Assembly (NCBI GenBank): GCA_022340315.1
Contig: JAJDOD010000116.1
Location: forward strand, 1 to 37,267
Length of the DNA: 37,267 nucleotides
Direction of reading: 5' to 3'
Origin: Silicimonas sp.
Lineage (GTDB): Bacteria > Pseudomonadota > Alphaproteobacteria > Rhodobacterales > Rhodobacteraceae
In this document: in pieces, positions 17,151 to 37,267 of the stretch
How positions within the stretch are numbered: the first letter of the stretch is position 1
How the letters are laid out: each line of letters starts with the position of its first letter
Notes under the pieces: generated by a model
The model's database searches: none
What the model saw: only the letters and a program-made list of their open reading frames with translations
What the model was told of the DNA's origin: nothing
Translations under genes and position numbers: made by a program

Positions 17151-17227
17151 TCGCGCCTCTGCAATTCTGCACAACCGGCATCGCGTTGACCTTCCGGCCA
17201 ACTGAACCAGCTTTGTCGGGACAACCG

Positions 17228-18106
17228 ATGACAGGATCCGAAATGCCCGACACCTACTCGCCGCCCGACGTCTGGACCTGGGAAAGAGAGAACGGCGGCC
17301 AATTCGCCAAGACCAACCGGCCCGTCGCAGGTGCAACACATGACAAGGAGTTGCCGGTCGGCAGGCACCCATTTCAGCTCTATTCGCAGGGAACGCCCAA
17401 CGGTGTGAAAGTCACCGTGCTTCTCGAGGAACTTCTCGCCGCCGGCGAGGCAGGCGCCGAGTACGACGCCTGGCTGATCCGCATCGGCAACGGCGACCAG
17501 TTTGGGTCGGGCTTCGTCGAGATCAACCCGAATTCCAAGATACCCGCGCTTGTCGACCGGTCTGGCGAATCCCCGGTCCGCGTCTTCGAATCCGGCGCTA
17601 TTCTTCTGCATCTCGCCGAGAAGTTCCGCAGATTCCTCGGTCCCGCCGAAGACCGTCCGGAGATGCTTTCCTGGCTTTTCTGGCAGATGGGCAGCGCACC
17701 CTACCTTGGTGGTGGCTTCGGTCATTTCTACCACTATGCTCCCGAGAGGTGGGAATACCCAATCAGCCGCTACGCGATGGAAGCGAAGCGGCAACTCGAC
17801 GTCCTCGACCGACACCTCGTAGGACGACAATACATGGTCGCGGACGAGTTCACGATCGCTGACATGGCGATCTGGCCCTGGTACGGGCAACTGGCGCTCG
17901 GGCGGCTCTACAATGCCGGCACGTTCCTCGATGTCGAAAGCTATGAAAACGTCCTTCGCTGGGCCAGAGCCATCGACGCTCGCCCGGCAGTTCAACGCGG
18001 CCGCATGGTGAACCGGCTCTCTGGCGAGCCGTCGACGCAGCTTCGCGAGCGCCACGATGCGCGCGATTTCGACACGAAAACCCAGGATAGGATCGGGCAG
18101 GACTAG
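17228..18106 (+). CDS. yghU: Glutathione-dependent disulfide-bond oxidoreductase (YghU-type GST)
   Basis: TYSPPDVWTWERENGGQFAKTNRPVAGATHDKELPVGRHPFQLYSQGTPNGVKVTVLLEELL is typical of YghU. Confidence 0.92.
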   Translation: MTGSEMPDTYSPPDVWTWERENGGQFAKTNRPVAGATHDKELPVGRHPFQLYSQGTPNGVKVTVLLEELLAAGEAGAEYDAWLIRIGNGDQFGSGFVEINPNSKIPALVDRSGESPVRVFESGAILLHLAEKFRRFLGPAEDRPEMLSWLFWQMGSAPYLGGGFGHFYHYAPERWEYPISRYAMEAKRQLDVLDRHLVGRQYMVADEFTIADMAIWPWYGQLALGRLYNAGTFLDVESYENVLRWARAIDARPAVQRGRMVNRLSGEPSTQLRERHDARDFDTKTQDRIGQD

Positions 18107-18159: not shown

Positions 18160-18222
18160 ACCGCCGCGCACCGATGTCGGCACCGACGTAATACCGACGT
18201 TATACCGACGTAATACCGACGT
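18160..18222 (+). repeat. 11-bp-period tandem repeat, copy 1 (upstream of ttcA)
   Basis: ACCGCCGCGC-ACCGATGTCGGC-ACCGACGTAAT-ACCGACGTTAT-ACCGACGTAAT-ACCGACGT. The 11-mers are at 18182-18192, 18193-18203 and 18204-18214, with a partial at 18215-18222. Confidence 0.95.
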
Positions 18223-18329: not shown

Positions 18330-19169
18330 ATGCTCGACGATGGCGACGATATTCACCCGCTCTTCAAGGGCGCACCCGCTTCGACGGAGTTCAAGAAGCT
18401 CCGCAAGCGGATCGTGCGCAATGTCCGCGAAGCCATCGAGCACTATGGCATGATCGACCGAAGCGCACCTCCGGCGCGATGGCTCGTCTGCCTCTCGGGC
18501 GGCAAGGACAGCTACACCTTGCTTGCCGCGCTCTACGAGTTGAAGTGGCGCGGCCTTTTGCCCGTGGATCTTCTCGCCTGCAATCTCGACCAGGGCCAGC
18601 CCGGTTTCCCGGCAACCGTACTTCCAGAGTTCCTGCAGAAGATGGGCGTACCGCACCGGATCGAGTACCAGGACACCTATTCCATCGTCACCGACAAGGT
18701 GCCCGCCGGCCGGACCTATTGCGCACTCTGCTCGCGGCTCCGGCGCGGTCACCTTTACCGGGTGGCGCGCGAGGAAGGCTGTTCGGCGGTGGTTCTTGGG
18801 CACCATCGGGACGACATCCTCGAAACCTTTTTCATGAACCTCTTTCACGGCGGAAGGCTGGCCACCATGCCACCGAAACTGGTGAACGAGGAAGGCGATC
18901 TTTTCCTCTATCGCCCGCTCGCGCATGTCGCCGAGGCGGACTGTGAAAAGTTCGCAAGGTCAATGAACTACCCGATCATTCCCTGCGATCTCTGCGGCAG
19001 CCAGGACGGGCTTCAGCGCCAGCAGGTAAAGGCCATCCTCGACGGCTGGGAGAAGAACGCGCCGGGGCGTCGGCAGGTGATGTTCCGGGCGCTGATGAAC
19101 GCCCGGCCGTCTCACCTGCTCGACCCCAAGCTCTTCGATTTCGCGGCTCTTGACCTGAAGCGGCCTTAA
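18330..19169 (+). CDS. ttcA: tRNA 2-thiocytidine biosynthesis protein TtcA
   Basis: PP-loop [47 protein letters not shown]. Start chosen at [12 protein letters not shown]. Confidence 0.93.
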
Positions 19170-36818: not shown

Positions 36819-36918
36819 TGTTTTTACTCCATTCTTGCCCTCTACGGGCGCTTTTGCTTTGTCCGGCCGGTGCTGCGTGCGTCACCGGCTCACCTTGGGG
36901 CGGAATGCCCGAAATCCG

Positions 36919-36979
36919 ACGTCGGTATAACGTCGGTATTACGTCGGTATCGCGTCGGTGGATGAACCGACGCGATACC
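36919..36979 (-). repeat. 11-bp-period tandem repeat, copy 2, plus inverted unit forming a 14-bp hairpin (rpoA-rplQ spacer)
   Basis: Minus strand ACCGACGCGAT-ACCGACGTAAT-ACCGACGTTAT-ACCGACGT (36959 to 36919). Plus strand GGTATCGCGTCGGT (36946-36959)-GGATGA-ACCGACGCGATACC (36966-36979). Confidence 0.95.
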
Positions 36980-36988
36980 TTTTGTTCC

Positions 36989-37267
36989 TCAGAACTGGTC
37001 CTCGAACTTCTTGGCCAGGTCCTCGATGTTCTCCGGCGGCCATTCCTCGACATCCATGCCGAGGTGCAGGCCCATGCCCGAGAGCACTTCCTTGATCTCG
37101 TTAAGCGACTTGCGGCCGAAGTTCGGAGTGCGCAGCATCTCGGCTTCGGTCTTCTGGATCAGGTCGCCGATGTAAACGATATTGTCGTTCTTCAGGCAGT
37201 TGGCCGAACGCACCGAAAGCTCCAGCTCGTCCACCTTCTTCAGCAGAAGCGGGTTGAACTCGAGACC
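36989..37267 (-). CDS. rpoA: DNA-directed RNA polymerase subunit alpha, C-terminal part (runs off window end)
   Basis: [62 protein letters not shown] is the alpha-CTD. Confidence 0.97.

Follow-up and report, generated by a model that had tools for sequence, protein, structure and literature searches.

Phased direct repeats of about 11 bp for cooperative protein binding are known from R1 parC, the site of ParR, and from plasmid iterons, and the arrays described here resemble them in this layout. The site families of SlmA, Noc and MatP offer another likeness, as in each a specific site is repeated at tens of scattered positions. To our knowledge, few chromosome-wide, strand-oriented site families have been described in bacteria, and such families, exemplified by KOPS, Chi, Noc and SlmA sites, each led to a central chromosome process. 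Among the targets of response regulators, PhoP sites consist of 7-bp direct repeats with a strictly required 4-bp spacer, and PhoP binds tetra-motif DNA with higher affinity than two-motif DNA (PMC4832192).

The window, a stretch of 37,267 nucleotides, belongs to the MAG of a marine bacterium of the Rhodobacteraceae, 3.33 Mb in 210 contigs. As stated in a preliminary description of this DNA, it contains two exact copies of the 30-mer ACCGACGTAATACCGACGTTATACCGACGT, at 18182-18211 (+) and 36919-36948 (-), for which 100 dinucleotide shuffles give a chance expectation of 0. The 11-bp tandem period reported there was also recovered, by TRF, at 18182-18222 and 36919-36959, with four units at each site. 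Array 1 (18182-18221, +) is composed of four ACCGACG units (18182-18188, 18193-18199, 18204-18210, 18215-18221) separated in order by TAAT, TTAT and TAAT, and bordered by the conserved bases C at 18181 and T at 18222. A degenerate fifth unit, ACCGATG, lies 12 bp upstream on the same strand (18170-18176, within the feature 18170..18181), and degenerate 5' units of this kind are also present at other sites. The array is preceded by a glutathione S-transferase (GST)-like gene (17186..18106, +) and followed by ttcA, encoding tRNA 2-thiocytidine synthetase (18330..19169, +; TtcA match NCBIfam PRK10696), whose ATG at 18330 is 108 nt from the array end. Array 2 (36920-36959, -; spacers CGAT, TAAT and TTAT) occupies the rpoA-rplQ spacer and ends about 101 nt before the ATG (36818) of rplQ, the gene for ribosomal protein L17 (36393..36818, -; Pfam L17 match). 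On its other side lies the 3' end of rpoA (36989..37267, -), which continues past the window edge and is identified from the preliminary description and from synteny with rplQ in 30 genomes.

These two sites belong to a much larger set. In the window genome, a three-unit pattern gave 63 matches and a four-unit pattern with at most three mismatches about 57 sites, with a mean gap of 55 kb; the reversed control pattern gave none. A dispersed repeat family, one of the options raised at the outset, is supported by these copies. Exactly four in-register units are found at 53 sites, the unit being ACCGACG-YRAT (a 7-bp motif and a 4-bp spacer, hence the 11-bp period), and an in-register fifth unit was seen once. 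Only two of 212 units depart from ACCGACG, and the last two bases of the spacer are always AT (no exception in 159), while its first two are YR (TA, TG, CG or CA) with register preferences, such as TG in the third spacer of 40 of the 53 sites. The TAAT/TTAT alternation, which had been taken to speak against simple slippage, is ordinary variation of this YRAT spacer. The array is preceded by C and followed by T in 57 of 58 cases each; outside this core the information content drops and the flanks diverge. The pattern search is biased toward good matches, yet few sites with one to three mismatches were found, so the family appears sharply pristine in this genome. The arrays do consist of tandem repeats, and could be read as products of slippage or of a local duplication, a vanishingly unlikely origin given the constant unit number, the register-specific spacers, about 57 dispersed copies and the orthologous placements described below. 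The polar four-box array family is real and, as far as the open literature shows, previously undescribed: we found nothing relevant there on the ACCGACG motif or on Roseobacter repeats, and we know of no regulator with this motif.

With up to two mismatches allowed, matches were present in 28 of 397 sampled Rhodobacteraceae genomes (at least 28 genera), and array-bearing genomes hold from one to about 200 three-unit matches (maximum 201). None of the approximately 380 genomes from other families matched in a class-wide sample of 385, where the only matches were three Rhodobacteraceae members. One 29-mer searched against 84,980 GTDB species genomes hit at least 80 loci; among the matches listed, all are from Rhodobacterales or unassigned alphaproteobacterial MAGs, and the taxa include Shimia, Pseudooceanicola, Roseovarius, Silicimonas, Boseongicola and Pseudohalocynthiibacter. 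In these other genera, again among the matches listed, three perfect units are accompanied by a recognisable fourth (at least five of seven matches) in 39 of 80 loci, and by no further units. An origin from plasmids or phages was rejected, since neither 72,556 plasmids nor 50,697 phages yielded a convincing match in a search subject to a low-complexity filter. In one genome (G239) the reversed control pattern matched nine times and the true pattern never; these matches may belong to repeats of similar sequence from an unrelated family. Closer to the window genome, whose arrays are pristine, those of three sister species (G001-G003) are mostly decayed and a genus mate (G004) has none, a contrast that looks as if maintenance depended on a factor. 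Pristine arrays also occur in G299, G245, G312, G180 and G270.

Some placements are old. Arrays stand before lpd in three genera, in the same orientation and 23-25 bp away, and others occupy shared positions beside transporter genes. Of 23 genomes belonging to the genus or to array-bearing genera, 13-14 have an array before the chorismate mutase gene, with placement, orientation and distance all kept; none of eight comparison genomes (seven array-free relatives and G004) has one there. The rpoA-rplQ spacer carries an array in six array-bearing genomes in addition to the window genome; G001-G004 have a different stem-loop there instead. The local duplication that the preliminary description had kept as an alternative is excluded by these placements together with the genome-wide copies. 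The ttcA copy is lineage-specific: G004 and G245 carry the GST-like gene upstream but no array, and elsewhere an array upstream of ttcA was found only in G180 and G396, beside other sequence.

Almost all sites lie between genes, and their neighbours (lpd, chorismate mutase, smpB, nuoD, transporters, rplQ, ttcA) have no common theme. Sixteen lie between convergent genes, 13 between divergent genes, and 12 and 10 in the two tandem arrangements, which reveals no preference for gene direction. The preliminary description had noted that both arrays are read the same way as the gene that follows and end roughly 100 nt before its start; this holds for the window sites, but the above counts show that the shared direction is not a general rule. 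With a link to gene direction unsupported, an ordinary operator role is unsupported too, and a role as operator of ttcA or rplQ was likewise rejected as a general rule, the ttcA copy not being conserved. More broadly, the arrays could serve as the operators of one large regulon of the conventional kind, probably under an OmpR/PhoB-type response regulator that controls the adjacent genes. The 7+4 direct-repeat geometry and the conserved distance of 23-29 bp before the lpd and chorismate mutase starts would fit such a regulon, but the convergent sites, the tandem sites of which about half oppose the genes, the several arrays inside operons (nuo, rpoA-rplQ), the thematically unrelated neighbours and an orientation that tracks strand skew instead of genes make it decidedly unlikely.

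This strand polarity was scored with 200-250 bp around each array left out of the skew. ACCGACG runs along the locally C-rich strand at 53 of 58 sites of the window genome (p 3e-11), at 27 of 28 sites of G299, and in 71 of the 80 GTDB loci among the matches listed (p 4e-13, counted per locus, with several loci from one genome). Same-composition 7-mers lie on the C-rich strand in just 58% of cases, which rules out chance composition. In G083, a complete chromosome with a clean two-replichore skew, nine of ten array matches follow the skew. A coarse replichore split of G299 gives 45 of 66 (p 0.003) and a 20-kb skew split 23 of 27, as arrays track the local skew even inside flipped blocks of about 40-100 kb; polarity is weaker in G424 (13 of 18, p 0.10, partly from one-mismatch matches). 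A by-product of gene direction was also ruled out, since genes of either strand near arrays give the same skew sign, and in G299 and G424 the skew is independent of coding direction.

The skew declines a few kb from the arrays, probably because they sit in long-resident core DNA. The arrays do not appear to create it: at the orthologous rplQ and chorismate mutase loci, local skew is unchanged between genomes with and without an array, and the idea of the array as its cause was not supported there. The flipped blocks themselves (40-100 kb within one replichore of G299 C1, at about 1.7, 1.96-2.02 and 2.28-2.39 Mb; L244, L342, L247) are not explained by gene direction and are probably inversions. 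Because arrays follow the local skew inside these blocks, they may not depend on their present orientation with respect to the fork; orientation may have been set relative to replication and later carried along by inversions. About 57 copies oriented by GC skew, some of them at positions kept across genera, differ on every count from the hundreds of randomly placed and oriented copies lacking orthologous conservation that the preliminary description had equated with a generic dispersed repeat.

We also considered that the arrays act in transcripts, as a terminator, an attenuator or an RNA-protein site. When four sites were folded against shuffles, array 2 at rpoA-rplQ stood out (z -5.7), its first unit being part of a 14-bp inverted repeat, GGTATCGCGTCGGT-TCATCC-ACCGACGCGATACC (36946..36979, -), and other genera have different stem-loops in the same spacer. 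This stem, which recurs in G245 with a different loop, is local to that site and not a family trait: the remaining folded arrays are no more structured than shuffles (z +2.2 to -0.1), arrays occur in both orientations relative to genes, and no Rfam covariance model matched over them, the search yielding nothing beyond a TPP riboswitch, unrelated to the arrays, and one chance match below threshold. An RNA-level element is therefore very unlikely, and was set aside. The TPP riboswitch (RF00059, L065:4015-4118) lies near one array site. Separately, the rplQ leader (window 36819-36915, -, and L255-L284) contains, downstream of the variable stem-loop, a family-conserved block GGGCATTCCGCCCCAAGGNGAG..GACACGCATC..GACAAAGC, perhaps a ribosomal-protein leader or an element for processing.

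Around 26 sites are embedded in a longer, degenerate intergenic mosaic element of about 200 bp with the layout CGTTAACnnnCCGTTAACCTTTCTTACCGCACGC..GCCGCCC..ACCGACCCATCC-[array]-TTGCGTTTTCGCCCC..GGCGTTAACGC..CGTTGCCCGCAACACC..CGCGCGC..CGTTAACC; both window sites have the core of about 45 bp only. GTTAAC occurs in 41 copies within 150 bp of arrays and in 12 in the rest of about 240 kb, CGCRCGC..GTTAA was found only near arrays in the fetched DNA, and mosaic modules also flank arrays in another genus (G299). In the mosaic elements (L032-L087), GTTAAC often forms TTAAC repeats with 11-bp spacing, reminiscent of CtrA half-sites. Two subfamilies share nearly identical downstream parts, a mark of recent multiplication, and because copies have common flanks such amplification explains part of the similarity between arrays. 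The array could then be the conserved centre of an intergenic mosaic repeat of the REP/BIME/RIME or MITE kind, either selfish or neutral, with a strand bias arising from insertion into the single-stranded lagging-strand template and orthologous copies as old insertions. Beyond the GTTAAC enrichment and the recent multiplication, the alignment of 26 copies over about 200 bp with GTTAAC, GTTGC..GCAAC and CGCRCGC modules, the patchy distribution (0-200 copies per genome) and the lack of the ttcA copy in relatives with the same GST-ttcA order all speak for such a repeat, as does an in-frame array in valS of two Shimia species (L149:1778-4951, L133:4861-7998), which adds about DTDVIPTQYRRDTDV between AEMNGV and AQTANKW. 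However, about half of the sites are core only, including all the conserved placements checked and thus the deeply conserved sites; there is no hairpin of the sort usual in REP or IS200/IS605 products (z near 0), no target-site duplication was identified, and core identity far exceeds flank identity. Patchiness and common flanks keep the selfish repeat alive as a possible explanation, which we nevertheless regard with some doubt; if it held, the family would stand out among mosaic repeats by its strand selectivity.

The reading that we tentatively prefer, at somewhat less than even confidence, is that a protein binds these polar arrays in phase with the helix, and that their role concerns the chromosome as a whole and not individual promoters. 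Protein binding, as suggested in the preliminary description, gains support from about 57 sites with strictly four units, an invariant motif, a variable spacer and some conserved orthologous placement. Each site would be a putative binding array of about 45 bp, C-(ACCGACG-YRAT)x3-ACCGACG-T, for a single sequence-specific DNA-binding protein whose four subunits could line up head to tail along one helix face. The 7-bp motif and strict 4-bp spacer suggest a protein with OmpR/PhoB-type winged-helix geometry. This trans-acting factor would place the arrays under purifying selection, and new sites may have spread partly as the core of the mosaic element. From about one site per 55 kb, the avoidance of gene bodies, the indifference to gene direction and the single skew orientation, we infer that the arrays might serve in organising, orienting or tracking the chromosome instead of controlling neighbouring promoters. 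Against such a role stand the patchy distribution, odd for a core chromosome function, the roughly random spacing in G299 (CV 0.91) with no concentration near ori or ter, the unchanged local skew at orthologous loci and the weak polarity in G424. A bolder version, in which Rhodobacteraceae possess a polar system dedicated to chromosome organisation, is speculative and seems to us unlikely: a putative head-to-tail tetramer would bind the roughly 60 oriented arrays of four boxes on each chromosome and mark strand and direction in segregation, in replication or in nucleoid occlusion, and arrays would decay where the protein is lost. The sharp definition of the arrays, their visible decay in sister species and their survival across genera at some loci should make a trans-acting factor traceable.

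Compared with the systems mentioned above, the arrays differ from R1 parC and iterons, which lie at replication or partition loci, in being chromosomal, dispersed and made of four units, without a plasmid match or adjacent par or rep genes seen. They differ from the palindromic, non-polar sites of SlmA, Noc and MatP in being direct repeats with polarity. Like BIME and REP of enterics and the RIME and ABC elements of rhizobia, they are dispersed intergenic copies of recombined modules that are patchy between lineages; unlike them, their core is a four-unit direct repeat and not a palindrome, excess structure among the four folded sites is confined to rpoA-rplQ, and they are strongly strand-polar with some placements kept across genera. 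With KOPS, recognised by FtsK, and with Chi, recognised by RecBCD/AddAB, they share a replication-related strand bias, measured here by skew and replichore proxies, at about the 90% level. Those families comprise hundreds of 8-mers, whereas the arrays are about 45 bp long, intergenic, present in only some genera within a single family and sparse (about 57-66 sites, mean gap 55 kb), with no increase towards ter. Unlike OmpR/PhoB sites, they are not located at promoters or pointed at a regulated gene, always count four units, exist in about 57 near-identical copies and are polar with strand skew; like the pho box and PhoP sites, they are head-to-tail repeats of a 7-bp motif with a strict 4-bp spacer and an 11-bp period.
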